Of a DNA stretch of 40,861 nucleotides, positions 5,884-19,333 are shown in pieces (the first letter of the stretch is position 1; the number at the start of each line of letters is the position of its first letter). Below the pieces are notes generated by a model. That model saw only the letters and a program-made list of their open reading frames with translations, was not told the origin of the DNA and searched no databases. This DNA comes from Synergistaceae bacterium (GTDB taxonomy: Bacteria; Synergistota; Synergistia; Synergistales; Aminobacteriaceae): assembly GCA_031272145.1 (NCBI GenBank), contig JAISUL010000069.1, positions 1 to 40,861 on the forward strand. The letters are read 5' to 3'. The position numbers were made by a program, and so were the translations under genes.

Positions 5884-6885
5884 TTAATAATGCGGGCGGG
5901 AACGCCACGTCGCTCTGAGGCGCCGCGCTTCGGCGATGAGCTCCTCCTCATAGCGAAGCAGCGCGACGGCCTCCTTGGGGGTCGTCATCTCGAAGCGGAC
6001 GCGCTGGCCGGGCAGGCGCTGAGACAGGGCCTCCACGTCAACAGCGCAAACGGTCGCTATCTTCGTGTAGCCGCCGGTCGTCTGACGGTCGGCAAGCATC
6101 ACTATCGGCATGCCGTGGCCAGGCACCTGCACACTGCCAAGCGCCACCGCGTCGGAGATGATGTCGGCGCCGGCTTTGTGCTCAATCTCCGCGCCCTCCA
6201 TGCGGTAACCCATGCGGTCAGCGGCGTTCGTTATGGTGTACTCGGACGTGTAGAACGCGTCGGTGCCCTTCTTCGTGAAGCCAGCGTCCTGAGGGCCGGG
6301 TATGGTGCGGAGCGGCGCGTTTGGGTCGCGAACGGGGCGCAGCGCTTCGGGCAGAGTAAGCCACTCGCACTCCTCCCAGAGCAGGTCGGGCGTTCCGGTG
6401 GTCAAGACGTCGCCTGCCGCAAGGGCGCGTCCATCTAGGCCGCCGAACTTGCCCCGCGTGTAGGTCGAGCGGCTGCCCATCACAACGGGAACGTCCACGC
6501 CGCCCGATACGCAAAAATACGCCCGCGCTCCGCCTCGCAAAGCGGTGACGGCAATTTCATCGCCGTCCCACACGCGAATGGCAGTCCATGACGGGACGGA
6601 GAGGCCGTTCACGGTTATCATGGCGTCCGCGCCGGTCACGGCAAAACAGCCGCTCCCTTCGGCGCGCAGAACTGGGCCAAGCACGGTTATCTCCAGGCCA
6701 GCTGGCTCCAGAGCGGGGTTCCCGCTGGCGGGCTCATTGCCGACGAGCACGTTGCCGAGCCGGAGCGCCGCTGAGTCCATCGCGCCAGCAACGGGGACGC
6801 CCAGCGCCTGAAAGCCCCTTCGCCCTAAGTCCTGCACAGTCGTGAACATGCCAGGCTTCTCAACAAGCAGCCTCAATTTGCACAC
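5884..6885 (-). CDS. pxpC: 5-oxoprolinase subunit C (KipA/biotin-dependent carboxyltransferase-like)
   Basis: 333 residues, full length. The N-terminal VEKPGMFTTVQDLGRRGFQALGV-type region (split here to its parts: TTVQDLGRRG, GVPVAGAMDS) and the IPGPQD and YTITNAADRMGYRMEG motifs are typical of the KipA family, which is related to urea amidolyase domains. Starts with a GTG at 6885 inside the end of pxpB (13-base overlap), so translation is coupled. It forms the catalytic complex with PxpB and acts with PxpA. Confidence 0.92.
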   Translation of the reverse strand: MCKLRLLVEKPGMFTTVQDLGRRGFQALGVPVAGAMDSAALRLGNVLVGNEPASGNPALEPAGLEITVLGPVLRAEGSGCFAVTGADAMITVNGLSVPSWTAIRVWDGDEIAVTALRGGARAYFCVSGGVDVPVVMGSRSTYTRGKFGGLDGRALAAGDVLTTGTPDLLWEECEWLTLPEALRPVRDPNAPLRTIPGPQDAGFTKKGTDAFYTSEYTITNAADRMGYRMEGAEIEHKAGADIISDAVALGSVQVPGHGMPIVMLADRQTTGGYTKIATVCAVDVEALSQRLPGQRVRFEMTTPKEAVALLRYEEELIAEARRLRATWRSRPHY

Positions 6886-7736
6886 CCCCCAGACATGCGG
6901 TCAAACTCCGCGCGGCTTATCGGGACGAACCTGACCCACATGCCGGCGTTCAGGAATATCGCCGGCTCCCGAGTTGGGTCGAACATCTTTAGCGGCGTTC
7001 TTCCTATTATGTTCCACCCGCCGGGGCTGTCGATCGGGTATATGCCGGTCTGCTTTCCGCCTATGGCCACTGAGCCAGCCGGTATCCTCTCGCGCGGCTC
7101 CTTCAGCCTTGGAGTCTCAAGCGACGCGTCCATGCCGCCGAGGTACGAATACCCAGGCACGAAACCGAGCATGTAGCAGTAGCAGTCCTTCGACGTGTGA
7201 CGCCGCACGACCTCCTCGCGCGAAATCTTGGCGTTGGACGCAACGCGGTCAAGGTCGGGCGCAAGGTCGTCGCCCTCGTAACAGGTTGGGATGGTCAGAA
7301 GCTCGGCCTCCTTGGGGGCCTCGGACCCCTTGGTGTCCACAGACGCCTGGGCTGCCGTCTCCGACCCATTGGAGTCGCGCTCGCCTTTGGCGCCTTTCTT
7401 GCCCTTGGTTTTGTGCGGTGCAGGCGCCTCCTGTGCAGGCACCTCCGGGGCTGCCGGCACCTTTATGTCCGCCGCAGCCGCCCTGAGGAACGCTTCGGCC
7501 TCGTCGGGCGCGGTGACTAGGGGGTTGAAGCACACGGCAAGCGAACGGTACGTCGGGATAGCCTCCAGAAAGCCCGCAAACGGAGCGGCGGTGACGCGTG
7601 CGCGCAACGTCTGCACGCACGCGTTGATGCCCATGTCTATCGCGTCGCCGAACTCAACGACAACGCATGCCTCGCCAGCAAGCGCGTACCGAGGCGCAGG
7701 GAAAGGCGCTGGCGCAGTAGAAGAAGACGCGCTCAT
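6873..7736 (-). CDS. pxpB: 5-oxoprolinase subunit B (KipI) with an extra low-complexity insert
   Basis: 287 residues, about 50-60 longer than most PxpB proteins. Residues 15-92 are the KipI N-terminal domain and residues about 145-287 the cyclophilin-like domain (CYCYMLGFVPGYSYLGGMD, IPAGSVAIGGKQTGIYP, GGWNIIGRTP). Between them, residues about 93-144 are Ala/Pro-rich, then Lys/Gly-rich, then acidic, and look disordered. This linker is not part of the family fold. Four bases separate the start from the stop of the transporter gene. The insert may be a flexible linker acquired by slippage. Confidence 0.9.
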   Translation of the reverse strand: MSASSSTAPAPFPAPRYALAGEACVVVEFGDAIDMGINACVQTLRARVTAAPFAGFLEAIPTYRSLAVCFNPLVTAPDEAEAFLRAAAADIKVPAAPEVPAQEAPAPHKTKGKKGAKGERDSNGSETAAQASVDTKGSEAPKEAELLTIPTCYEGDDLAPDLDRVASNAKISREEVVRRHTSKDCYCYMLGFVPGYSYLGGMDASLETPRLKEPRERIPAGSVAIGGKQTGIYPIDSPGGWNIIGRTPLKMFDPTREPAIFLNAGMWVRFVPISRAEFDRMSGGCAN

Positions 7737-7740
7737 AGCT

Positions 7741-8943
7741 TTATTTCACCAGGGCGGCCAGGCCGGAAAGCGAGTTTATGCCCATCCACGCGGTGAAGGC
7801 CACCATAACCCAGCCGAGGACGGTCATCCAGACGGGGTGACGGTATTCGTCGATTATATCCCGACGGTGAGCCGCAAGCAGCATCGACGCCAGGGAAAGG
7901 GGCAGTATGAGGCCGTTTATAGAGCCAGCCAGGACAAGAAGGGTCACGGGACGGCCGATGAAGCTCAGTATCGACGTCGAGGCCACAATGAAGCCGATTA
8001 TCCAGTAGCGCTGGTACTTTTCCACAAAGGTCGAAAGAGTGCGCAGGAACGACACGGACGTGTAGGAGCACCCAACGACTGAGGTGATCGAGGCCGCCCA
8101 GAGGATGATGCCGAAGATCTTGTACCCCACGTCGCCGGCCGCGAGACGGAAGGCGTCCGCCGCGGGGTTGCCCTTGTCAAGCGCCACGCCGCTGGCCACC
8201 ACGCCCAAAATGGCGAGGAAAAGCAGGAAGCGCATAACGCCGGTTATCGCAATGCCGTTCGTCGCGCCGACGCTGATGCGGCCTAGGTTCTCGCGCCCAA
8301 CTATGCCGGCGTCAATGATGCGGTGCGCGCCGGAAAACGTGATGTAGCCTCCGACTGTGCCGCCCACGAGCGTGAGGATGGTCATCCAGTTGATCGACGA
8401 CGGGACGAACATCTCCTTTACCGCTACCACCACCGGCGGACGGGTTACGACGACCACGTAGGCTATCATGGCTATCATAACGAAGCCCAGCACCTGCGCG
8501 AACTTGTCCATCGCCTTGCCGAGGTCCTTCCATAGGAAGATGACGATGGCGATGATCGCGCTGATCCACGCGCCGGTGGTCTGGTCGAGTCCAGCGATGA
8601 CGTTCACGCCGAGCGCCGCGCCGCCGACGTTGCCGATGTTGAACGCAAGCCCGCCAAGCGCCACGGCGAAGGCGAGGAAGTACCCCAGCCCTGGCAGCAC
8701 CCGGTTGGCCACGTCCTGCCCACGCAGCCCCGACACAGCGAGGATGCGCCAGATGTTGAGCTGCACCACGATGTCGATGAGGATGGAGATGAGGATGGCG
8801 AACGCGAACGCAGCCTTAAGCTGCTCCGTGAACACCGTGGTCTGAGTGATAAACCCAGGCCCTATCGCCGACGTCGCCATAAGAAACGCCGCCCCGAGCA
8901 GCACGCTCAAAGTGCCCCCGGAGCCCTTGTCCTTGTCCTGCAT
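7741..8943 (-). CDS. NRAMP-fold transporter of the 5-oxoprolinase operon (YcsG-like)
   Basis: A 400-residue protein with about eleven hydrophobic segments and the NRAMP opening (FLMATSAIGPGFITQTTVFT). NRAMP metal carriers have a DPGN motif in helix 1 and MPH in helix 6; here helix 1 reads GPGFITQT and helix 6 FSGAHRIIDAG, so the known metal ligands are missing. In Bacillus subtilis a similar protein, YcsG, sits with YcsF/KipI/KipA. As first gene of this pxp operon it may import 5-oxoproline or another organic substrate rather than a metal; this is inference. GGGGGG acts as ribosome-binding site and a perfect hairpin precedes it. Confidence 0.85.
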   Translation of the reverse strand: MQDKDKGSGGTLSVLLGAAFLMATSAIGPGFITQTTVFTEQLKAAFAFAILISILIDIVVQLNIWRILAVSGLRGQDVANRVLPGLGYFLAFAVALGGLAFNIGNVGGAALGVNVIAGLDQTTGAWISAIIAIVIFLWKDLGKAMDKFAQVLGFVMIAMIAYVVVVTRPPVVVAVKEMFVPSSINWMTILTLVGGTVGGYITFSGAHRIIDAGIVGRENLGRISVGATNGIAITGVMRFLLFLAILGVVASGVALDKGNPAADAFRLAAGDVGYKIFGIILWAASITSVVGCSYTSVSFLRTLSTFVEKYQRYWIIGFIVASTSILSFIGRPVTLLVLAGSINGLILPLSLASMLLAAHRRDIIDEYRHPVWMTVLGWVMVAFTAWMGINSLSGLAALVK

Positions 8944-9018
8944 TTAAAGCCCCCCTTTTTACGGGGCTGCTCAAGCCCCGTCTGCCCTCTATATATCACG
9001 CACATCGGAAAAATGCAA
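8944..9018 (-). promoter_or_regulatory. Promoter and 8-bp hairpin leader of the 5-oxoprolinase operon
   Basis: Minus strand: TTGCAT (9018-9013), 16-base spacer, TATATA (8996-8991), then a perfect hairpin ACGGGGCT-TGAGC-AGCCCCGT (8981-8961), then GGGGGG (8955-8950) and the ATG at 8943. The hairpin would lie near the 5' end of the mRNA. It could protect the transcript or control ribosome access; which is unknown. Confidence 0.6.
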
Positions 9019-9029
9019 GGGAAGTGCGC

Positions 9030-9058
9030 TTGATTTTTTCGCCTGCACGGTCTATACT
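9030..9058 (+). promoter_or_regulatory. Promoter of the ankyrin gene at 9098
   Basis: TTGATT (9030-9035), 17-base spacer, TATACT (9053-9058). It is divergent from the operon promoter at 9018-8991. Confidence 0.65.
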
Positions 9059-9097
9059 TTTCCCAAATTCTTTTTTTGAGGGGAGCGCCTGGAAACA

Positions 9098-10111
9098 ATG
9101 GGAAAGCTGTTGCCAGAGGAATTCATCACTCTCTGCAAAAGCGGGACGTCGCGGGAAGTCACGGATGCCATCACCGCTGTAGGGCAGTCGGCCCCGAGCG
9201 TGAACGCTCAGGACGACGACGGAATGACGCCCCTCCTGTACGCCGTGTACTTCAACAACACCGAAGCGGCCGCCGCCCTGCTGAAGGCCGGTGCCGACGT
9301 TGAGGCAAGGGACACCGACGGCGAGACGCCCCTCATGCACGCCGCAAGCTCCGCCTCTCCCAACCTCACGCTCATCGCTGCCCTGCTGAACGCCGGCGCC
9401 GACGTCGAGGCAAAGGACACCGACGGCATGACAGCCCTGATGCACGCCGCGTACCTCTCAAGCCTCACGGTCATCTCCACCCTGCTGAAGGCCGGTTCAA
9501 ACGTGAACGCTAAGGACTACTACGGGATGACGCCCCTCCTGCACGCCTCCGCCTATAACCCCAACCCCGCCGTCATCACCGCGCTTCTCGACGCTGGCGC
9601 CGACGTCCACGCAAAGAACAGGGACGGCGTCACCCCTCTGATGATGGCCGCCTACAGCAACCCCAACCCCGCCGTCATCACCACCCTGCTCAAAGGGGGT
9701 GCGTCCACCGAAGCCAAGAAGCCAAGCGGCTGGACGCCCCTTATGTATGCCGCGACACATAACGACAACCCGGACATCATCGCCGCCCTGCTCAAATCCG
9801 GGTGTGACCCGGTCGACTCCAAGGACGCCGACGGCTGGACAGCCCTCCTGCACGCCGCGCGGTCCAACAACAACCCCGCTGTCCTCGTCGCCCTCATCGA
9901 TAGGGGCGCCGACGTTCACGCAAGAAACAGGGACGGCGTCACTCCCCTGATAATGGCCGCTGCGCGCAGCCGCAACCCCGCGGTCATCGCTGCCCTGCTC
10001 GAAAAGGGCGCCGACCCCAATGCACGGGACGGCAGAGGGAACACCGCTGCCGTGTACGCACGCGAGAACAAGGATTTGAAGGACAGCAAGCTCCCGGGGA
10101 TAACCATTTAA
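9098..10111 (+). CDS. Cytoplasmic ankyrin-repeat protein, nine repeats
   Basis: 337 residues with no signal peptide or membrane segment. After about 35 residues, nine ankyrin units of 33-35 residues follow (pattern DxDGxTPLxxAAxxxNPAVIxALLxxGADVxAK), ending with a degenerate cap (DGRGNTAAVYARENKD). The array covers nearly the whole protein, so it is a binding scaffold; the partner is unknown. At DNA level two segments 309 bases (three repeats) apart are about 89% identical (9596-9651 and 9905-9960), showing recent internal duplication. GAGGGGAG lies 10-12 bases before the ATG. Repeats resemble those of the exported protein at 1-640. Confidence 0.92.
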   Translation: MGKLLPEEFITLCKSGTSREVTDAITAVGQSAPSVNAQDDDGMTPLLYAVYFNNTEAAAALLKAGADVEARDTDGETPLMHAASSASPNLTLIAALLNAGADVEAKDTDGMTALMHAAYLSSLTVISTLLKAGSNVNAKDYYGMTPLLHASAYNPNPAVITALLDAGADVHAKNRDGVTPLMMAAYSNPNPAVITTLLKGGASTEAKKPSGWTPLMYAATHNDNPDIIAALLKSGCDPVDSKDADGWTALLHAARSNNNPAVLVALIDRGADVHARNRDGVTPLIMAAARSRNPAVIAALLEKGADPNARDGRGNTAAVYARENKDLKDSKLPGITI

Positions 10112-10130
10112 GAGGACGGCTCCGGTCAGG

Positions 10131-11132
10131 TCATGTAATATCCATTAGCTTTTCAAGCCCCGCCAGCGCCCTTTGGGGCGTTATATCTGCCAGGCACTCA
10201 TTTTTTTGCGGGCAGCGGTAGTTCCAGCAGCCGGCGTCGGGGCAGCTTACCTGCACCTCACGGAACCACGGCGCTCGAAACCCCAGCCTGTACGAGTCCG
10301 TCGGGCCGAAGAAACCCAGCGTCGGAGTCCCGGCCAGCGCGGCAAGGTGCAGAGGCCCGCTGTCGTTTCCCGCCGCCGCGTCGCATAACTTCGCCGCCGC
10401 CGCCATCACGGCGTAGTCCATCTTCCCAACCAGGGAGAGCAGGCCTCCAGATGGAAGCGCCTCCGTTATCTCCCGCGCAGTCCGCGCCTCCGCCTCGCCC
10501 CATCCGTTCAGGACGACGCTCCAGCTTGAGGCCGACTGATCCCCCTTTGCTAGCAGATGCCTCAGGAACTCCACCCAGTGGCGGACTGGCCAGAGCTTTT
10601 GCGGCTTGCTTGCCCCAATCACGGCGAAAAGCCGCCTCTTGCGGGGAGCCAGTTCCCCGAGCAGGGCTTTTGCCGTCTCGTCCGCCTCCCGCGTCGTGAA
10701 TATCGCCGTGCCGTCCCTGTTCATGAAGTCCACGCCGAGCGAGTCGAGCGCGTCCCAGTGCGTCCCGGCGTAGCAGAACTGCATGCTCCGGTTGTAGCCG
10801 AAACGCCGCGTCACGCCTGACGCCAACGCCAGGCACGCGGCCGCGCCCCCCTGATGCAGGCTGAACACCCAGTCGAAACGAGACGCCGCGCGCGCCGTGC
10901 TGAAACCCCCCCATGGGCGCTTCGGGTCCCACTGGATCACTCCGTCGACGTACGGCTGGGTTCTCACGATATCCGCGTACTCGGGCCGCGTCATGAACGT
11001 CAGTTCCGTTTCCGGGTATCGGAGCTTGAAGCGCTGCGCCCCCGCCGCCGCCTGGAGCACGTCCCCAAACGCCCCGAAACGAATCCATAAAACTCTGTCC
11101 CCAGGCTTCGGGGCACTCCCCCTAATCGCCAT
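10131..11132 (-). CDS. Glycosyltransferase family 9 (heptosyltransferase-like)
   Basis: 333 residues. The N-terminal domain opens VLWIRFGAFGDVLQAAAG, typical of GT9 enzymes that add heptose to the LPS inner core; the C-terminal nucleotide-sugar half has AVIGASKPQKLWP, and DAAAGNDSGPLHLAALAGTPTLGFFGPTD (seen as NDSGPLHLAALAGTP then LGFFGPTD). The C-terminus is cysteine-containing (CWNYRCPQKNEC), common in LPS heptosyltransferases. The start at 11132 is chosen because AGGGGGTGAG lies just before it and the longer frame crosses the divergent gene. It supports a diderm cell envelope with LPS. Acceptor and donor cannot be told. Confidence 0.88.
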   Translation of the reverse strand: MAIRGSAPKPGDRVLWIRFGAFGDVLQAAAGAQRFKLRYPETELTFMTRPEYADIVRTQPYVDGVIQWDPKRPWGGFSTARAASRFDWVFSLHQGGAAACLALASGVTRRFGYNRSMQFCYAGTHWDALDSLGVDFMNRDGTAIFTTREADETAKALLGELAPRKRRLFAVIGASKPQKLWPVRHWVEFLRHLLAKGDQSASSWSVVLNGWGEAEARTAREITEALPSGGLLSLVGKMDYAVMAAAAKLCDAAAGNDSGPLHLAALAGTPTLGFFGPTDSYRLGFRAPWFREVQVSCPDAGCWNYRCPQKNECLADITPQRALAGLEKLMDIT

Positions 11133-11180
11133 GTGCTCACCCCCTGGAGGTGTATAATAAACAAACAGGGGGGTTTTAAA
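11133..11180. promoter_or_regulatory. Compact divergent promoter region
   Basis: On the plus strand GTGTATAAT (-10 box TATAAT at 11152-11157) serves the HAD gene, followed by GGGGGGT before the ATG at 11181. On the minus strand the same bases read TTATACACC and could be a -10 for the glycosyltransferase, so only 48 bases hold both starts and both promoters probably overlap. Confidence 0.5.
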
Positions 11181-11777
11181 ATGGGCGATCTCGCCCTGTT
11201 CGACTTCGACGGAACCATAACGAGGCACGACACGTTTTTCGGGTTCAACACCTTCGCGCGAGGGCGGACTCGCGTCGCGGCTGCCGAGGTGCGGGCAGTC
11301 GCTGCTGGGCTGCGGCATGGGTGCTTCGATACGAGCTTTCTGAAGGAGGTCTTCGTCGGCGCCCTCTGGTCTGGGACGCCTGTGATCGAGTACAGGGAGC
11401 TAGCCAGGCGCTACGCCGAGACGCTGGACGCGGACGTATTTCCCGACGCCGTCCGTGCCCTCGCATGGCACGCGGAGCGCAGCGACGAGGTGTACATCGT
11501 CACGGCCTCGATGAGGGACTGGCCAGCGTTCTGGGGTGAGCCGCGCGGCATATCGGTCATCGGGACGGAGCTCGAGGAGAAAGACGGGCTTCTGACTGGG
11601 CGCTTCGCCACGCCGAACTGCCGCGGGCCGGAGAAGGTGGTGCGCATCAGAGCTGCCATCGACATAGAGCAGGTGCGGCGCGGCGGGCGTCGGATATTCG
11701 CCTATGGAAACAGCGCCGGGGACAGGGAGATGCTAGCTCTCGCAGACGTGCCTGTCTATAGATGGAAGAGAGTGTGA
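11181..11777 (+). CDS. HAD superfamily (subfamily IB) phosphatase
   Basis: 198 residues. Motif I is DFDGT (D8 nucleophile, D10), motif II lies in VYIVTASMRDW, the conserved Lys region is GPEKVVRI and motif III is YGNSAGDREML. It belongs to the phosphoserine phosphatase-like IB group; the substrate is unknown. The start is the ATG with GGGGGGTTTT upstream; an upstream in-frame GTG at 11133 lies before the -10 box and is rejected. Divergent from an LPS glycosyltransferase gene, so a role with sugar-phosphate or phospholipid intermediates is conceivable. Confidence 0.88.
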   Translation: MGDLALFDFDGTITRHDTFFGFNTFARGRTRVAAAEVRAVAAGLRHGCFDTSFLKEVFVGALWSGTPVIEYRELARRYAETLDADVFPDAVRALAWHAERSDEVYIVTASMRDWPAFWGEPRGISVIGTELEEKDGLLTGRFATPNCRGPEKVVRIRAAIDIEQVRRGGRRIFAYGNSAGDREMLALADVPVYRWKRV

Positions 11778-11804
11778 CTCAGAGCAGATGGCGGCCCTAT
11801 GTGC

Positions 11805-11867
11805 TATAATCGCGAAGAACGCTTATTTATAGGCGGCCAATAATGGGGTCTGAGACCCCAAGGAGGG
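11805..11867 (+). promoter_or_regulatory. Promoter and hairpin leader of the zinc-ribbon gene
   Basis: An extended -10 (TGCTATAAT; TATAAT at 11805-11810) is followed by a perfect hairpin GGGGTC-TGA-GACCCC (11845-11859) and immediately AAGGAGGG, then GTG at 11874. One of the clearest members of the hairpin-plus-Shine-Dalgarno leader set. Confidence 0.6.
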
Positions 11868-11873
11868 ATTGCC

Positions 11874-12239
11874 GTGGCGCTGGTGGCTTGCAAGCTGTGC
11901 GGGCGCGGGTTCATAAACGGGCCTGAGGGCGAGGACGTGTGCGTCGAATGCCGAGAGAAGATGAAGCACGTCTACAGGACGGTGCGCGAGTTCCTGCGCG
12001 ACCACGAGAATCAGATGTTCAGCGTGTACGACATAAACAGAATCCTAGGCGTGCCGGTTGAGGACGTCGAGGGGCTGGTCAAGCTGGGCTGGATAGACAG
12101 CGGGGTGTCATCAAGCAAAAAAAAGACGCTCAAGCCCCTCGCGGACAGAAGGGGCAGCTCCCCCTTATCCGACACCGCCGACCAAGGACGCGCGAAGTCG
12201 TCGAGCTCGATGCACACTTACGAAAAGAAAAGACGCTAG
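11874..12239 (+). CDS. Zinc-ribbon protein resembling the YvyF flagellar-operon family
   Basis: 121 residues, GTG start with AAGGAGG eight bases upstream. An N-terminal zinc ribbon (CKLCGRGF ... CVECREK) is followed by a helical segment (VYRTVREFLRDHENQMFSVY) and a MerR-like helix-turn-helix hint (DINRILGVPVEDVEGLVKLG), then a basic, Ser-rich tail. This order matches the YvyF/TIGR03826 proteins, which occur in flagellar operons of Firmicutes; there are no flagellar genes here. It is probably a small regulator. Followed by the FAD oxidoreductase gene with only 33 bases between. Confidence 0.7.
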   Translation: MALVACKLCGRGFINGPEGEDVCVECREKMKHVYRTVREFLRDHENQMFSVYDINRILGVPVEDVEGLVKLGWIDSGVSSSKKKTLKPLADRRGSSPLSDTADQGRAKSSSSMHTYEKKRR

Positions 12240-12242
12240 GCC

Positions 12243-12264
12243 GGGGTCTTAGGCCCCAAGGAGA
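12243..12264 (+). promoter_or_regulatory. Intercistronic hairpin next to the ribosome-binding site
   Basis: GGGGTC-TTA-GGCCCC (12243-12257, one G-U pair) is followed at once by AAGGAGA and, eight bases on, the TTG start at 12273. It is the same design as at 11845 but lies between two genes and has no -10 box, so it acts, if at all, on translation or RNA stability. Confidence 0.5.
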
Positions 12265-12272
12265 CTGACAAT

Positions 12273-14498
12273 TTGAAGAACCAGCGCTACTTATACTTCG
12301 CTGTTGCGGTGATTTTGATTTATGCGTGTTTTGCGGAGCCGGCTAGGGGGGCTAGCTCCCCTAAGGGAACAAGTTCTCCATCGGGGCGTTCCTACGACGT
12401 CGTCGTCGCGGGAGGCGGGATCGGCGGGATAGCGGCGGCGATTCAGGCCGCGAGAATGGGCGCGTCGGTTCTGGTCGTGGAGCCGAGCGGCTGGATAGGC
12501 GGACAGGCCACGGCAGCCGGCGTCTCCACGATGGACGACCTGAGCCGCCAGCGCAGCGGGATATATCTGGAGTTCATCTCGCGCCTTCGCGCCTACTACG
12601 ACGCCCAGGGCAAGTCCATGGGCACCTGCTACTGGGACTCGCGCAGCACCGCCTTCGAGCCCTCCGTCGGCCAGAGGGTGCTCTACGACATGCTCCCCTC
12701 AAATCTGGACTTAGCGCTCCACACGTCGGTGACCGGCGTAACCCGCGACGGCAAGTCCGTCACAGGCTTAACCCTGTCCACCGGCCAGAACGTGAAGTGC
12801 AAAGTCCTGATCGACGCCACAGAGTACGGCGACGTCCTGCCCCTGGCCGGAGCGGAGTACCGCGCCGGGAACTCCGTCACGCCGTTCATCAACCCCGACG
12901 CTATGATACAGGACATAACATGGGTCGCGATAATCCGCTCCTACCCTGGCGGCGTGCCGTCGCACCTGAGGCCGCTCCACCCTCTGCCAGGCTACGAGGA
13001 GGCTAGGAGAAACTACGAGAGCTACGTCACGCGGAACGGCTTCGACTTCAAGGGCGTGTACCCGGTGCGCCTGCCGGTGAATTTCGTCAGCCACAACGCC
13101 TACCGCGGCCTGCCGGACTCGTCCTCGCCATGGACTTACGACGCCTCCCCTGACAACTGGAAGTTCATAAGCAAGACCGCCGTCAACTGGGGCAACGACT
13201 ACCCAGGCAAGGAGGCGTGGAACGGGCGCATGGGGCTTCCGGTGGACTACCTTGAGAACAGGGCGCTCCGTGCGGAGGTCGAGCGGGCCGCGTTCATAAA
13301 GACCCTTCATTTTATATACTACGTCCAAAACGAGCTAGGCCAAAACTGGTCTGTGACGGAGGACGAGTACGTGGACACCGTGCCGCCCGGCCTGTCCACC
13401 CCTCTGGGCTTGGCAAACCCTCTGCCCGATGAGTGGCGCGCCGTGGCATCTCGCATGCCGCCCATCCCCTACGTCCGTGAGTCGCGGCGCATCGTCGGGG
13501 ACTACACCCTCACCTCGGAGGAAATGCTCAGAAATTCTCTGAGCTACCGAAACGGCCAGACAAGCCACGAGTTCCCCGACGCGGTCGCGATAGGCGGCTA
13601 CATCCTTGACCTGCACGGCGCCAACACCGACGCCGATGCCGAGTGGCAGCTTGCAGAGAAGGCCTCGTCAGCCATGCACAACCGCCCGCGCGGCCCCTTT
13701 CAAGTCCCGATGAGAGTGATGATACCGAAGGACGTCGACGGCCTGCTCGCGGCTGAAAAGAACATCTCCGTCTCGCGCTTCGCCGCCGGTGCGCTGCGCC
13801 TCCAGCCCATATGCATGATGGTTGGTCAGGCAGCAGGTGCGCTGGCCGCAGTGTCCGCGCAGGACGGAACCAAGCTGCGCGACGTGCCAGCCGTACGCGT
13901 GCAGAGCGCCCTGCTTGATGGGAACGTCGCCCTCTCCCTATGCCGCTACTCGGACGTCCCGCCGGAGCACCCGTTCTACAAGGCCGTGCAGATGTCGAAC
14001 CTTCATTCGTTGATCGATCCCCTTTCGCCGCCCCACGCCCCGGCCTACGACATAAGCGACCTCGACGCGCCGGAGCTCGCGATGGCCATCATAAACGGCG
14101 CCGACAAGGGCGTCTTCGGCGTGGACGAGCTCCTGACGCGAAGCGAGATGACCGCCATGCTGGCCCGCGCCCGCGCCGCCAGCCAAGTACGAAGAGGCGC
14201 GGCCCCGGCGAATGATAAGGCAAAGGGGAAAAAGGCCTTCGCATTCGTCTCGCGCTGGGACTTCACCGCCGCCCTAGCCTCCGCATTCGGCATACCGTAC
14301 GGAGAGCAGGCTCCCCATGCGAGTTACTTCTCTCTGCCTGACGGGCACCGTGCGCGGGAGCTGGTCGACGCCATGACCGCGGCAGGGGTTCTGGACGTCT
14401 TCCGCGCGGACAGAGTCTTCCACCCTGCAAAGCCCATCACGCGCGGCGAGGCCATCGAGATGACGTACCGAGCTATGACCGCCGCCAATCGCCCCTGA
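12273..14498 (+). CDS. Exported FAD-dependent oxidoreductase with C-terminal SLH modules
   Basis: 741 residues, TTG start after AAGGAGA. A signal peptide (residues 1-27; a Cys at 19 makes a lipoprotein possible but the lipobox is poor) precedes an FAD_oxidored-type domain (YDVVVAGGGIGGIAAAIQAA at 41-60; GWIGGQATAAG; later YVRESRRIVGDYTLTSEEM and LRLQPICMMVGQAAGALA). From about residue 555, S-layer-homology features appear: YSDVPPEHPFYKAV, LLTRSEMTAMLARA and FHPAKPITRGEAIEM. So it is probably anchored to peptidoglycan or the outer envelope by the SLH part. The substrate is unknown. The last 26 bases overlap the convergent protease gene. Confidence 0.88.
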   Translation: MKNQRYLYFAVAVILIYACFAEPARGASSPKGTSSPSGRSYDVVVAGGGIGGIAAAIQAARMGASVLVVEPSGWIGGQATAAGVSTMDDLSRQRSGIYLEFISRLRAYYDAQGKSMGTCYWDSRSTAFEPSVGQRVLYDMLPSNLDLALHTSVTGVTRDGKSVTGLTLSTGQNVKCKVLIDATEYGDVLPLAGAEYRAGNSVTPFINPDAMIQDITWVAIIRSYPGGVPSHLRPLHPLPGYEEARRNYESYVTRNGFDFKGVYPVRLPVNFVSHNAYRGLPDSSSPWTYDASPDNWKFISKTAVNWGNDYPGKEAWNGRMGLPVDYLENRALRAEVERAAFIKTLHFIYYVQNELGQNWSVTEDEYVDTVPPGLSTPLGLANPLPDEWRAVASRMPPIPYVRESRRIVGDYTLTSEEMLRNSLSYRNGQTSHEFPDAVAIGGYILDLHGANTDADAEWQLAEKASSAMHNRPRGPFQVPMRVMIPKDVDGLLAAEKNISVSRFAAGALRLQPICMMVGQAAGALAAVSAQDGTKLRDVPAVRVQSALLDGNVALSLCRYSDVPPEHPFYKAVQMSNLHSLIDPLSPPHAPAYDISDLDAPELAMAIINGADKGVFGVDELLTRSEMTAMLARARAASQVRRGAAPANDKAKGKKAFAFVSRWDFTAALASAFGIPYGEQAPHASYFSLPDGHRARELVDAMTAAGVLDVFRADRVFHPAKPITRGEAIEMTYRAMTAANRP

Positions 14499-14901
14499 TG
14501 ATGCTCTCCGAAACCCGCACGGCCGCCCTCTCCACAGCAGGCGACGGAGCCCGGCCCAGCTCCCGCTGGCCGGGCTGAATCCCAAGGACGAGCATCTCCA
14601 TGCTATCCCTGAACGGCGCAAGCAACGCGGACAGCGGCACGCCGTGGCTCGTCTCCACGACGCCTGCCCCCACGTCGTCGAGGGTCATAATCCGCGTCTC
14701 GCCCGGCTCCAGCCCCATGTCGACCGCGTCAACGATGAGCAGCGTGCCCTTCATATGGCGCAGTTCTCCCAAATGGTTCTCCGGCGCCACCCCGCAGTCC
14801 GTTACTGCCACGGAAGCGTCCCTAAGAAGCTCCGCGACTCGGCAGCCAACCCCGTCGTCGCCCATAAGCGCGTTGCCGACACACCAAACGCGCAAGCACA
14901 T
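14473..14901 (-). CDS. Hydrogenase maturation protease (HycI/HyaD family)
   Basis: 142 residues. The family motif GNALMGDDGVG is at residues 9-19 (Asp16 region binds nickel in relatives), IVDAVDMG follows, then SHGVPLSALL and LGIQPGQ. These proteases remove the C-terminus of the large subunit of [NiFe] hydrogenases after nickel insertion. No [NiFe] hydrogenase gene is visible here, so the substrate is elsewhere. Start ATG follows AGGGGGA. Convergent with, and overlapping by 26 bases, the FAD oxidoreductase gene. Confidence 0.88.
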   Translation of the reverse strand: MCLRVWCVGNALMGDDGVGCRVAELLRDASVAVTDCGVAPENHLGELRHMKGTLLIVDAVDMGLEPGETRIMTLDDVGAGVVETSHGVPLSALLAPFRDSMEMLVLGIQPGQRELGRAPSPAVERAAVRVSESIIRGDWRRS

Positions 14902-14935
14902 TTATAATCATCCCCCTGGAGAAGCTGGCAGTATC

Positions 14936-14966
14936 TATTATAGGGGGCTCAGACCTCAAGGAGGCC
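14936..14966 (+). promoter_or_regulatory. Promoter and leader of murJ
   Basis: TATTAT (14936-14941) lies right before GGGGGCTCAGACCTCAAGGAGG. A GGGG/CCTC hairpin is possible, and alternatively CTCAAGG-AGG-CCTTGAG (14955-14971) would fold the ribosome-binding site into a 7-bp stem. Confidence 0.45.
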
Positions 14967-14973
14967 TTGAGTA

Positions 14974-16512
14974 ATGGAGCCTGCTCGCATGGTCAGGCAC
15001 GCGCTTCTTATGATGGTCGGGACATGTCTGAGCCGCGTGCTGGGGCTTGCCCGCGAGATGGTCACAGCGGCGTTCTTCGGCGCCTCAGGGCAGCTCGACG
15101 CCTTCAACGTCGCCTACACCGGCGCGAACTTAGCACGGCAGCTTCTTGCGGAGGGAGCTCTCTCAGCCGCCTTCGTCCCGGTCTTCTCCCGCACCCTTGC
15201 AGACGGACTGCCACGCGCCATATCCCTCGCGCGTCAGGCCCTGACAGTGCTCATCGTCGCATCACTCGGCGTCACCATGCTCGGCATCGCCGCCGCACCC
15301 CTGCTGACCTTCGTCATGGCACCGGGCTTCGACGTCCCGACCGCCGCCCTCGCGACGCACCTCACCCGCTGGCTGTTCCCGTTCCTGTTCATCATCTCCC
15401 TGGCCGCCCTCGCAATGGGGGTGCTCAACAGCATGGGCTCCTTCTTCGTGCCCGCTCTGGCCCCGGCCTTCAGCAACCTGGCCTTCATAGTTTCCGCTCC
15501 GTTCCTCGTCGGGCGCTTCGGAGTGCTCGGCCTCGCCTTCTCCGTGCTGGCCGGCGGCTTCGCGCACTTCTTCAGCCAATGGCTCTGGGGACGCAGACTC
15601 GGCGTGACGCTGCTTCCTGAGCGCCCAGACCTCTCCGACCCGTCCCTCCGCCGCATGATGGCGCTCTTCCTCCCCTACGCCGCCGGCCTCTCCCTGAACC
15701 AGATAAACCCCGTCATCAGCCGCATGCTCGGGTCATTCCTCGAGGAGGGCAGCATCTCCGTCCTGAACTACGCCAACCGCGTGATCCAGCTCCCCCTAGG
15801 CCTCTTCGTGATAGCCGTATCCCAGGCCGTGCTGCCGCAGCTCTCGCGCGCCGCCGCACATGAGGACTTCTTATCCACTTTGGGCGACGCCCTGAGGTTC
15901 GCTTTGTTCATAGTCCTCCCAGCGTCGCTCGGACTGGCCGTCATAGCGGGGCCGTTCGTGCACCTGCTGTTCGTCCGCGGCGCGTTCGGCACATGGGCGT
16001 GGGAGGCAACCGAGGCCGCGCTGGTGCTCAGCGTGCTCGGCCTGCCCGGCATGGCCTGCTCCACCGTCGTCATGCGCGGGCTCTACGCCCTCTCCATGCC
16101 GCGCGAGGCGTTCAAAACCACCCTGTTCAGCGTGGCATGCACAGCCGCCCTGTCCTGCGCCCTGATGTTCCCAATGGGCTACCGCGGCTTAGCCCTCGCC
16201 CCGAGCGTGGCGTTCACTCTCGCCGGCCCCCTAGGACTACTATATATCAGAAGAAAAACCGCCACCTTCCCCTCCTTCCCCCTGCGCTGGATCATTAAGT
16301 CCGCCCTCGCCCTCGCCGCCATGGGGACAGCACTAATCTTGTTCCGCGCCTCGTTTCCCTACGACGCCGGAGCATCGGCAGCGCTGAGAACACTCTGGTG
16401 CCTCGGAGCCGTGCTGCTAGGAGGCTCAGTCTACGCCGCCGCCACCCTATCCCTGCGCTTCGACGAGTGGCGCTGGATCAAAACAGCCATCGCCCAAAAA
16501 AGAACAAAATGA
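14974..16512 (+). CDS. murJ: Lipid II flippase MurJ
   Basis: 512 residues with about 14 hydrophobic segments. The opening (LLMMVGTCLSRVLGLAREMV) and FGASGQLDAFNVAYTGANLARQLLAEGALSAAFVPVF-type region (AFNVAYTGANLARQLL, GALSAAFVPVFSR) are diagnostic of MurJ/MviN. It flips lipid II across the cytoplasmic membrane for peptidoglycan synthesis. ATG preceded by AAGGAGG. The next gene, another polytopic membrane protein, starts 16 bases after its stop, so they form an operon. Confidence 0.95.
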   Translation: MEPARMVRHALLMMVGTCLSRVLGLAREMVTAAFFGASGQLDAFNVAYTGANLARQLLAEGALSAAFVPVFSRTLADGLPRAISLARQALTVLIVASLGVTMLGIAAAPLLTFVMAPGFDVPTAALATHLTRWLFPFLFIISLAALAMGVLNSMGSFFVPALAPAFSNLAFIVSAPFLVGRFGVLGLAFSVLAGGFAHFFSQWLWGRRLGVTLLPERPDLSDPSLRRMMALFLPYAAGLSLNQINPVISRMLGSFLEEGSISVLNYANRVIQLPLGLFVIAVSQAVLPQLSRAAAHEDFLSTLGDALRFALFIVLPASLGLAVIAGPFVHLLFVRGAFGTWAWEATEAALVLSVLGLPGMACSTVVMRGLYALSMPREAFKTTLFSVACTAALSCALMFPMGYRGLALAPSVAFTLAGPLGLLYIRRKTATFPSFPLRWIIKSALALAAMGTALILFRASFPYDAGASAALRTLWCLGAVLLGGSVYAAATLSLRFDEWRWIKTAIAQKRTK

Positions 16513-16528
16513 CGGAGGTATGAACCCC

Positions 16529-18094
16529 ATGCTATTTATAATTGCATCATGGTGCCTGTGGTACGCCATAATCACCGGAATCGGCAGACTAGCCGCCTCC
16601 CCCTGGCGGCAAGACATAGGCACCTTCGACTCCTTCTGGCTCGGCCTAACCTGCCTGATAGCCGTCGCCGGCATCGCCCAGCTGTTCTTCCCCCTGAACA
16701 CTATGGCCATGTCCCTAGCCGGCGCCATCGGAGCAGTCGGCCTAATGCTGCCACCACACAGCCGCCCTCACCGCAAGGACGCCCCGTTCCTCCTGGCGTG
16801 CTTTGTTATCCTGCTCCTGACCTCCCTCCCCTCCCTATGCCCCACCATCCAATACAGCAGCGACACCAGAGGCTACCACCTCGAAACTATAGACTGGATA
16901 AACAGCTACGCCACCATCCCCGGCCTCGCCAACCTCCACAGCAGACTCGGCTACGCAACGGCATCCTCCTTCTTCTCCTTCGCCGCTCTCCTCGACAACT
17001 GGATCTGGGACGGACGCTCCTCCTGGCTCGTCGTCCAGTTCCTCCTCGCCGCCACCATGCTCCAAATCACCCACGCCCTGGTCTACGGCTCCCCTCGCGC
17101 CCGCACCTACTCCCTCATCTGCTTCGCCTACCTGCTGCTCGACCTCCTCTGGTGGCGCCCCGGCCTCTACTTTGAATCCCCAGTCTTCCACGCCCTCATC
17201 ATCGCCGGACTCTACGCCGTCGACAGGCTAACCCCCTTCGCCCTCTTCATCATCCCCACGCTGGTCATGACGGCCTTCACTATTAAGCCCATGCCAGTCG
17301 TCCTCCTCGCCCTCTGCACCGCAACCTATGCCACAGCCTTCATCATCAAGCCTAACTGCCGCAAAGCCATCGCCCTCGCCGCCGTCATCCCCACACTGCT
17401 CCTATTCGGCTACATGGCCCGCAACGTCGTCACCTCCGGCTGGGCTCTCTTCCCCTCCCCAATCCCCATCGGCCTCACTAACGCACCATGGGCTCTCTCC
17501 AAAGACGAGGTCGAAACAGAGTTCCACGTAATACGCAACTTCGACAGACTGGGACCCGCCTTCCAAATGGACAAACGCGACAACCCCGTCCGCGAGTGGG
17601 TAGGCGACTGGCTTAAGCGCGCACTCGACGACCGATTCGGGGTGGGGCTCTTTTGGGGGCCGCTTGCTTTATCGTTGCTGATGACGCTCTATTTGGGGCT
17701 TTGCCCCAAACCCCACCAAAGGGCAGGCTTGCCCTTTGGAATCCCGATCTTGACACTGCTTGCACTATATGGGTCACTGATATTTTGGTTCTTCTCTAAC
17801 GGTTCGGTTCGGTTCGCTTGGCCCTTCGCCTGGCTGCTCATGGCATGGCACGGCGTTGCTCTTTATGACGCGGGGCTCCTCTCCGTAGGCCGCAAGACGG
17901 CGCTCTCCCTGGCAGCAGCGGCGGGCGTCGCGGCCTGCTTGGCGCTCCTCTTCATTATTCTGCCCTACAGACACGCATCCCCCTCCCTCTGGAGCACCGG
18001 ACGCGCCGACCTCTACCCGCTCCACACACCCGACCCCACCCTGCGCCTCATCGACCAGCGCGACATAACTAAGGGATTCCGCAAAAAACGCTGA
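16529..18094 (+). CDS. Polytopic membrane protein, LIC_10190-like (GT-C type?)
   Basis: 521 residues with about 10-12 membrane helices. The segment SSDTRGYHLETIDWINSYA, then PGLANLHSRLGYATASSFF, recalls LIC_10190-type membrane proteins, thought to be GT-C-like glycosyltransferases of surface polysaccharide paths; this assignment is tentative. The start at 16529 is chosen because GGAGG is ten bases before it; an ATG at 16520 lies only one base after the GGAGG. It follows murJ by 16 bases. A palindromic element at 17692-17746 is inserted in frame and adds about 18 residues (LCPKPHQRAGLPFGIPI) between two hydrophobic segments; codon use around it also looks different. Confidence 0.7.
   Translation: MLFIIASWCLWYAIITGIGRLAASPWRQDIGTFDSFWLGLTCLIAVAGIAQLFFPLNTMAMSLAGAIGAVGLMLPPHSRPHRKDAPFLLACFVILLLTSLPSLCPTIQYSSDTRGYHLETIDWINSYATIPGLANLHSRLGYATASSFFSFAALLDNWIWDGRSSWLVVQFLLAATMLQITHALVYGSPRARTYSLICFAYLLLDLLWWRPGLYFESPVFHALIIAGLYAVDRLTPFALFIIPTLVMTAFTIKPMPVVLLALCTATYATAFIIKPNCRKAIALAAVIPTLLLFGYMARNVVTSGWALFPSPIPIGLTNAPWALSKDEVETEFHVIRNFDRLGPAFQMDKRDNPVREWVGDWLKRALDDRFGVGLFWGPLALSLLMTLYLGLCPKPHQRAGLPFGIPILTLLALYGSLIFWFFSNGSVRFAWPFAWLLMAWHGVALYDAGLLSVGRKTALSLAAAAGVAACLALLFIILPYRHASPSLWSTGRADLYPLHTPDPTLRLIDQRDITKGFRKKR
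17692..17746 (+). repeat. Double-palindrome element inserted in frame in a coding sequence
   Basis: Two adjacent perfect inverted repeats: TTTGGGGC-TTT-GCCCCAAA (17692-17710) and CCAAAGGGCA-GGCT-TGCCCTTTGG (17716-17739), joined by CCCCA and followed by AATCCCG. The layout is that of a small mobile palindromic element (comparable to Rickettsia RPEs or BIMEs). It is open in the frame of the host gene and encodes a Pro/Gly-rich loop, unlike the surrounding membrane helices. Confidence 0.7.
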
Positions 18095-18115
18095 ACGTTT
18101 CGCCGGCACCGGCTG

Positions 18116-18155
18116 TATAATACGCCCCAAAAGGGGTCGAGAGGCCCCAAGGAGG
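18116..18155 (+). promoter_or_regulatory. Promoter and hairpin leader of the yggS gene
   Basis: CTGTATAAT (-10 TATAAT at 18116-18121), then CCCC-AAAA-GGGG (18125-18136) and, sharing the same GGGG, GGGGTC-GAGA-GGCCCC (18133-18148), directly followed by AAGGAGG (18149-18155) and TTG at 18165. The two hairpins exclude each other. Confidence 0.6.
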
Positions 18156-18164
18156 CTGGTTCGG

Positions 18165-18848
18165 TTGCCCGACACTACGGCGAGTTTGGCTGAAAGAGTT
18201 GCGGACGTGCGCAGCAGGATCGCACGGGCGTCTCGCGGACAGGAAAACGGCGCGGTCGAGCTCCTCGCCGTGGTCAAGACCCGCACGGCCCAGGAGGTTC
18301 TCGCGGTCGCCGCCCTCGTCGACTCCATCGGCGACAACCGCGTCCAAGAGGCCGAGAGGCGCGGCGCCAGGCCGGACTGCCCCTGCCGCATGATCGGACA
18401 CCTCCAGAGCAACAAGGTCAAGAAGGCCGCAGCCCTGTTCGACTCGATAGACTCCATCGACTCCACCGCCCTCGCACTCGCCCTGAACAGCGCGGTGACG
18501 TCGCCGCCCATGCCGGTGCTCATCGAGGTCAACACCTCCGGCGAGGCCTCCAAGACCGGCGTCACTCCCGAGGCCTTCCCCCAGCTGCTCGACTGCGTCC
18601 TCGCATGCGGCCACCTGCGCCTTGACGGACTGATGACCATAGGCCCCAACTCCGACGAGCGATCGGTCAGGGCCGCCTTCGCGCTCCTGCGCCGCACAGC
18701 CGAGGACGCGCGGCAGCGCTCAGGGCTGCCCCTCCCCGTCCTGTCGATGGGCATGAGCGGCGACTTCGAGTGGGCAGTCATGGAGGGCTCCACCAGAACG
18801 CGAATCGGCACGGCCATTTTCGGCCCAAGAACCTACCATAATGTATAA
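18165..18848 (+). CDS. YggS/PLPBP family pyridoxal-phosphate homeostasis protein
   Basis: 227 residues, TTG start after AAGGAGG. The PLP-binding lysine is K38 in LLAVVKTRTAQEV; GDNRVQEAE, MIGHLQSNKVKK and LMTIGP and SMGMSGDFEWAV are typical of the YggS fold (alanine racemase N-terminal-like barrel). The family keeps PLP supply and amino-acid pools balanced and has no known enzymatic activity. It often lies next to sepF in cell-division clusters of Gram-positive bacteria, as here. The stop codon TAA is part of the -10 box of the sepF promoter. Confidence 0.93.
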   Translation: MPDTTASLAERVADVRSRIARASRGQENGAVELLAVVKTRTAQEVLAVAALVDSIGDNRVQEAERRGARPDCPCRMIGHLQSNKVKKAAALFDSIDSIDSTALALALNSAVTSPPMPVLIEVNTSGEASKTGVTPEAFPQLLDCVLACGHLRLDGLMTIGPNSDERSVRAAFALLRRTAEDARQRSGLPLPVLSMGMSGDFEWAVMEGSTRTRIGTAIFGPRTYHNV

Positions 18849-18886
18849 TGCTGAAAACGGCGGACTCGTTCCGCCCCGTAAGGAGG
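18844..18886 (+). promoter_or_regulatory. Promoter and hairpin leader of sepF
   Basis: ATGTATAAT with TATAAT at 18844-18849 overlaps the yggS stop codon. A hairpin GGCGGA-CTCGT-TCCGCC (18859-18875) follows at the predicted RNA 5' end, then AAGGAGG (18880-18886) and GTG at 18896. Confidence 0.6.
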
Positions 18887-18895
18887 GATGACCCG

Positions 18896-19333
18896 GTGTC
18901 TAACTGGCTGAAATTCCTCGGCTTTGGGGATGACTACGAAGAGGACGAGGATGAGGAGTACGCTGAAGAAGAATCCGGGACTAGACGCGGAGGACGCAGG
19001 GATCGCAGCGAACGTAACGAGCGTAGTGAAGGTGTTGGAAAGCGGACGGACGGGCGCGCCGTAAAAAAGCGCCTGCCTCAGCTTGTGTTCTTCAGGGGCA
19101 TTCCGTCCGAGGAGTCGAAGCTGGGTCTGCGCGACGCCCTGCTTGGCGGTGCCATGGTGTTGCTCGACCTGCAGGGCCTCGAGTCAGAGCGCCTCGAAGA
19201 GGGACGCAGTTTCATCAATTTTATGGGAGGGGTCGCCTTCGCTCACAAGGGCAAGATAGAGCGGATCGGACCGTCCCTTTTTCTCATCGCACCACGGGAG
19301 GGCATGCTCCAGTGGTGGGTAGAGGGGGAGTAA
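18896..19333 (+). CDS. sepF: Cell division protein SepF
   Basis: 145 residues. GTG start nine bases after AAGGAGG; a longer frame from 18848 would place the start within the -10 box and is rejected. The N-terminus (SNWLKFLGF) is an amphipathic membrane-binding helix, followed by an acidic then Arg-rich linker (residues 12-55) and the SepF domain (LVFFRGIPSEESKLGLRDAL, LLDLQGLESERLEEGRSFIN, FMGGVAFAHKGKIERIG). SepF ties FtsZ to the membrane. Five bases separate it from the divIVA gene, one operon. Confidence 0.92.
   Translation: MSNWLKFLGFGDDYEEDEDEEYAEEESGTRRGGRRDRSERNERSEGVGKRTDGRAVKKRLPQLVFFRGIPSEESKLGLRDALLGGAMVLLDLQGLESERLEEGRSFINFMGGVAFAHKGKIERIGPSLFLIAPREGMLQWWVEGE

Follow-up and report, generated by a model that had tools for sequence, protein, structure and literature searches.

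Copies of a dispersed short palindrome among the 5' leader hairpins of a Synergistaceae bacterium

The GC clusters of yeast mitochondria are short GC-rich mobile palindromes, flanked by direct repeats of AG or ACT, which merge into tandem units by a mechanism that is still open (PMC4478555). REP families are short intergenic palindromes of high copy number that occur in clusters and in some cases inside genes (PMC3733652), whereas the RPE, of 105-146 bp, are found between genes and also in frame inside protein genes (PMC2229807). In addition, stem-loops at the 5' end that stabilise the mRNA are known, with titles on ompA and papA among those listed in PMC3997798.

The window analysed here is one entire contig of 40.9 kb from a Synergistaceae bacterium, whose draft genome comprises 2.05 Mb in 107 contigs. 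Together with further stretches it makes up a sample of 975 kb, about half of the genome, in which genes were called with a simple script based on hexamers and the Shine-Dalgarno (SD) sequence, so that all gene starts rest on that caller. As some stretches were picked for holding copies of the palindrome described below, copy densities in the pooled set are upper estimates. Rfam covariance models matched only tRNAs in the window, and nothing up to E = 1 in the region 8800-19000.

Six leader hairpins and a palindrome family

A first-pass annotation had described a leader design common to at least six genes, consisting of a -10 box, a compact hairpin, and then the SD sequence (Table 1). The genes behind the six named hairpins encode an Nramp-type transporter, an unknown protein of 121 aa, an FAD oxidoreductase with an SLH domain, MurJ, a YggS-type protein, and SepF. 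Five of the inverted repeats are genuine, but at 14943-14957 the stem is poor, since it contains a G-T pair and a G-A mismatch. An AAGGAG(G) comes after the hairpin at 11845, 12243, 14943, 18133, and 18859, but is absent at 8961, where the stem of 8 bp with a loop of 5 lies in the leader AAAAAGGGGGGCTTTAAATG. The nearby -10 box was recovered at 14943, 18133, 18859, and 8961 (the last with a -10-like TATATA close by), whereas at 11845 the TATAAT (11805-11810) is 34 nt away and at 12243 no -10-like box was found. The TATTAT at 14943 is so close to the palindrome that the start site would lie within its 5' arm. In the minimum free energy folds of the six leaders, the named hairpin forms at 8961, 11845, 12243, and 18133; at 14943 and 18859 it does not form, and the SD itself is paired instead.

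Table 1. Palindromes, hairpins, and -10-like boxes of the window
Feature	Position	Strand	Context
Family-like copy, GGGGTCCGAGGCCCC	7315..7329	-	Within CDS 6873-7736, in-frame reading KGSEAPK
Hairpin unrelated to the family, ACGGGGCT-TGAGC-AGCCCCGT	8961..8981	-	Leader of Nramp-type gene (7741-8943)
Family palindrome, exact copy, GGGGTCTGAGACCCC	11845..11859	+	AAGGAGG next; upstream of gene for 121 aa (11874-12239)
Family copy, GGGGTCTTAGGCCCC, one T-G pair	12243..12257	+	Before FAD oxidoreductase/SLH gene (12273-14498)
-10-like box, TATTAT	14936..14941	+	1 nt upstream of the 14943 copy
Diverged family copy, GGGGGCTCAGACCTC, two changes	14943..14957	+	Before murJ (14974-16512)
-10-like box, TATAAT	18116..18121	+	11 nt upstream of the 18133 palindrome
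Family copy of 16 bp, GGGGTCGAGAGGCCCC, one T-G pair	18133..18148	+	Before YggS-type gene (18165-18848)
-10-like box, TATAAT	18844..18849	+	9 nt upstream of the 18859 hairpin
Hairpin unrelated to the family, GGCGGACTCGTTCCGCC (GGCGGA-CTCGT-TCCGCC)	18859..18875	+	Leader of sepF (18896-19333)

Four of the six stems, those at 11845, 12243, 14943, and 18133, are copies of one palindrome that is dispersed over the whole genome, GGGGTCTNAGACCCC, representing a family of 15-16 bp with arms GGGGTC/GACCCC and a variable centre. The pattern GGGGTCN{3,4}GACCCC occurs 77 times, a count for the entire genome and not for the 975-kb sample, and the reversed control 0 times; in four relatives the pattern is found 87, 62, 65, and 26 times and in most others about 0-5 times. 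The looser pattern GGGGN{4,12}CCCCAAGGAG has 12 matches in the genome (0 for its reversed form). A search of 727 kb with the 15-mer gave 45 exact copies, 29 with one change, and 31 with two changes, whereas six control 15-mers in the same DNA gave 0 exact, 0 one-change, and 3-15 two-change matches.

With arrays collapsed, about 96 loci are present in the 975-kb sample, most of them between genes and without a tie to leaders. Whatever the orientation of the neighbouring genes, their density is the same, at 1.07 copies per kb in co-directional gaps, 1.13 in divergent ones, and 0.97 in convergent ones; a terminator role was rejected because convergent gaps have no excess. The stems GGGGTCT-N-AGRCCCC do recur, as first annotated, and more often than by chance, but the cause is a dispersed repeat and not a leader design. 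Because these stems are copies of a family found anywhere between and inside genes, their recurrence is no proof of a conserved leader fold, and the impression of a shared leader arose from the four family copies lying within 7 kb. Intergenic copies are nevertheless found 10-25 nt upstream of a gene start in 15 cases, against 8.8 expected from random placement in the same gaps (window included), an excess that leaves room for a leader role.

Two further repeat-bearing genes were noted in the window. The CDS 16529-18094 contains two adjacent palindromes, GGGGCTTTGCCCC and CCAAAGGGCAGGCTTGCCCTTTGG (17695-17739), the second with a longer arm for which no other copy was found in the sample, and the gene at 9098-10111 encodes an ankyrin-repeat protein and has internal DNA repeats.

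Flanks, arrays, and empty sites

Identical 2-bp direct repeats flank the palindrome at 35 of the 96 loci (12.7 expected; none of 5000 shuffles of the right flanks reached 35). They are mainly AA, TT, GA, or TC, with some three-base cases, and in the window the 18133 copy is bracketed by AA..AA. When the flank comparison is shifted outward by 1, 2, or 3 bases the matches fall to 4, 8, and 8, the flanking dinucleotides match in direct orientation in 35 of 95 cases but in inverted orientation in 3 of 95, and control non-coding hairpins of 6 bp have a direct flank match in 4 of 60. A perfect 2-bp repeat is missing at the other 61 of the 96 loci, including the window copies at 11845 (flanks at..aa), 12243, and 14943, indicating that many copies are old or are not simple insertions. 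Of 28 spacers between tandem copies, 18 measure 2 nt and 6 measure 3 nt. Tandem units were not found in viral contigs, and among GTDB contigs they were found only in one Synergistaceae bin and two unrelated bins.

Paralogous sequences provide filled and empty versions of the same site, the evidence consisting of a few cases from paralogues only. The filled site L058:9053 reads CACCGA-GGGGTCTCAGACCCC-GAGCTCC, and differs by 15+2 bp from its empty counterparts at L142:7160-7247 (97% identical, CACCAAGCTCC) and in L066 (93%, TACCGAGCTCC). An extra block of 17 bp is present at L142:6914 and missing from L058, and in the comparison of L139:1609 with L136 the junction is inexact. The sequences involved (L058:8745-9067, L142, and L066) belong to a family of paralogous genes in multiple copies whose C-termini are rich in KAEGKAEG; the palindrome recurs in this family, of which several copies resemble pseudogenes.

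Elsewhere, copies interrupt reading frames or lengthen them in frame. Within genes they read as GSQTP or GVSDP peptides, and intragenic tandem pairs are mostly 18 bp apart, which preserves the frame. Relatives have no homologue of the interrupted frame at C81:126, which leaves the frame as the one basis for reading it as an insertion. A reading frame at L210:16480-17230 (G000:C46) holds several 16-bp copies of the GGGGTCTCATGACCCC type and repeated MRPQGV-like peptides, and at L072:18950-19130 (G000:C38) an array of three palindromes is found where a gene for HU is truncated N-terminally, beside an unrelated gene, which is possibly a rearrangement junction.

From these comparisons we consider it probable that the stems at 11845, 12243, 14943, and 18133 belong to a palindrome family that has been inserted many times across the genome. 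Each insertion would add the palindrome and duplicate 2-3 bp of the target, often AA/TT or GA/TC, and the AA of AAGGAGG would be one acceptable target, leaving the SD intact. A copy inserted just behind a promoter would give rise to a 5' leader hairpin, and arrays may grow when a further copy enters at the duplicated dinucleotide, or else through slippage.

Variation among the copies points to a process acting on DNA. Paired changes in both arms keep the palindrome perfect in 8 of the 31 two-change copies, which we estimate to be above the few percent expected by chance, and palindromic variants of other sequence, GGGGCC/GGCCCC and GGAGTC/GACTCC, persist. The single changes in oriented copies give no sign of a folding preference at the RNA level, as on the sense strand they leave 6 G-U and 5 A-C pairs, so that the pressure or process works on the DNA and not on the transcript; RNA-level selection on the family copies was rejected for this missing wobble bias. 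The palindrome may be kept perfect by arm-to-arm correction or by copying through a hairpin, and its spread would involve hairpin-templated copying together with target duplication by a nuclease. More tentatively, with chances that fall somewhat short of even, the perfect palindrome of 15 bp may itself be mobile, duplicating 2-3 bp of target, forming 17-bp tandem arrays, having both arms rebuilt from one template, and in some copies becoming a leader hairpin on the side of the SD; it would then be among the smallest such elements known.

Two other origins were weighed against the same data. A 15-bp twofold-symmetric DNA operator, bound near promoters by a global regulator or a nucleoid protein, would fit the perfect symmetry, the conservation of the arms on either side of a variable centre of 3 bases, and the position of some copies just downstream of -10 boxes. 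We regard this as very improbable, since neither the equal density in convergent gaps nor the direct-repeat flanks, the tandem 17-bp arrays, the copies within reading frames, and the empty paralogous sites are expected of an operator, and the persistence of the two palindromic variants also speaks against it.

The copies could instead be footprints, or minimal MITE-like derivatives, of an insertion sequence with GGGGTCT ends that has since been lost or is unassembled. Inverted arms with a target duplication of 2-3 bp are the standard outcome of DDE-type transposition, certain contigs end close to copies, and the terminal inverted repeats and target duplication of a MITE have counterparts here in arms of 6-7 bp and repeats of 2-3 bp, with no interior. 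Single GGGGTCT arms outside the copies, however, are not in excess (22 vs 19 expected), contrary to what a longer element ending in this sequence would leave behind, and the profiles DDE_Tnp_1, rve, and Transposase_20 (IS110-type), which cover some transposase families, had no match in this 107-contig draft. We consider such an origin unlikely. A reverse-transcriptase fragment resembling those of diversity-generating systems is located at L049:1-663 (start of G000:C9), cut by the contig end; a link between this fragment (C9:1-663) and the palindrome was looked for and none was found.

Hairpins next to the SD in short leaders

Apart from the repeat family, the layout of the first-pass annotation can be read as a shared functional 5' leader of conserved fold, in which a compact hairpin abutting the SD would protect the 5' end or keep the SD open. 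Part of this idea gained some ground. Among 64 leaders in which a -10-like box lies no more than ~60 nt from the SD, with the window and all family copies excluded, 10 have an SD-abutting hairpin, where 2.8 would be expected. For leaders with an exact TATAAT the figures are 7 of 24 against 0.8-1.6. The expectation of 2.8 comes from shuffling only the transcribed segment, which replaced shuffles of the whole segment, as the latter mix the AT-rich promoter with the leader and overstate the signal. Applied to DNA upstream of the -35, this test yields 0.7x, and applied to mid-intergenic DNA 1.25x. However, the profile of stem distances over all 320 genes with an SD has no peak beside it, so that the proposed genome scan for a -10 box followed by an SD-abutting stem is borne out in the -10-proximal leaders and not in SD genes at large. 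The SD-abutting stems of unrelated leaders differ in sequence, in line with the proposal that the fold is kept rather than the sequence, and exceed expectation, but that proposal does not extend to the recurring stems, which are repeat copies. At most, the 8961 and 18859 stems are part of this trend of short-leader hairpins.

Several observations weigh against a conserved functional leader. The minimum free energy folds omit two of the six named hairpins, the family copies lack a sense-strand wobble bias and are equally dense in convergent gaps, and the expectation that the hairpin is kept in relatives did not hold, at least for the two genes compared, yggS and sepF, whose leaders in other genera are without it. 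We therefore find a shared functional leader doubtful, if still possible in view of the enrichment, of the differing stems, and of the stabilising stem-loops known elsewhere. The excess in short leaders has modest support as a moderate trend, coming from one genome, few genes, and predicted start sites. The annotated layout may plausibly be a tendency of the lineage to which inserted palindromes contribute, and a role of the leader hairpins at the 5' end or in translation is possible. As short leaders carry an excess of SD-abutting hairpins of other sequence, a leader hairpin produced by insertion may be tolerated or even useful.

Relation to described palindromes and leader hairpins

A 15-mer related to the palindrome has other settings in the relatives. 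In G008 and G024 it is part of a MITE of ~100 bp (TTAAGGAAGCACTGATTAATGGGGTTCTTAGGGGCCTGAGGCCCCTAAG...TTAATCAGCGCTTCCTTAA) with many copies (L146-L165 and L166-L185; e.g. L152:12579) and three internal hairpins. The middle one is GGGGCCTGAGGCCCC, to which some copies have added units of 17 bp (GGGGTCTGAGACCCC + 2 nt). There, unlike here, the palindrome sits within an element with inverted ends of the TTAAGGAAGC type, and the hallmark motifs of this MITE were not found in the sample of the present genome. In G003 and G037 (L186-L205) the GGGGTC/GACCCC core is found in longer palindromes, such as CAGGGGTCNNNGACCCCTG, without direct-repeat flanks. The differences among these genomes indicate that the family has several forms, the free-standing inserted form being the one found here.

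Like the leader hairpins, the ompA/papA-type stem-loops precede the SD and lie close to the 5' end of the mRNA or directly at it, but they are gene-specific and have been tested, whereas here the evidence is a statistical enrichment in one genome with predicted start sites. With the RPE the palindrome shares insertion in frame within genes as well as between them; it differs in its length (15-16 bp vs 105-146 bp), and while it has direct repeats of 2-3 bp, the review cited gives no known target duplication for the RPE.

A spread as REP-type elements by a Y1 (RAYT/TnpA-REP) transposase would fit the intergenic habit, the high copy number, the clusters, and the intragenic copies, all of which recall the GTAG/CGTC REPs and REPINs (PMC3733652). 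But the palindrome is symmetric and only 15-16 bp long, has no GTAG or CGTC tag at either end (in the consensus or its flanks), is bordered by clear direct repeats of 2-3 bp, and favours neither 3' ends nor convergent gaps. The Y1_Tnp profile (PF01797) had 0 matches in this genome, while 23 of the 61 searched genomes have one. With neither tag nor transposase found, membership in the REP families was rejected, and a REP-type origin is very improbable.

No description of an identical bacterial element was found in the literature searched, the coverage of which is partial, and this is weak evidence of novelty. If the 15-mer is self-mobile, it would have about half the size of a typical bacterial REP, with target duplications and no recognised transposase. 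More generally, a scattered repeat can mimic a conserved regulatory leader, and insertion can provide leaders with hairpins.

By analogy, the palindrome appears to work most like the GC clusters of yeast mitochondria, of which it would be a bacterial counterpart if self-mobile. Common to both are a GC-rich palindrome, direct repeats of 2-3 bp, and tandem units. They differ in length (42 nt for GC42 vs 15-16 bp here) and in location, mitochondrial in one case and on a bacterial chromosome in the other, and the mobility of GC clusters is known from population data, whereas here it is suggested by the flanks and by empty paralogous sites.
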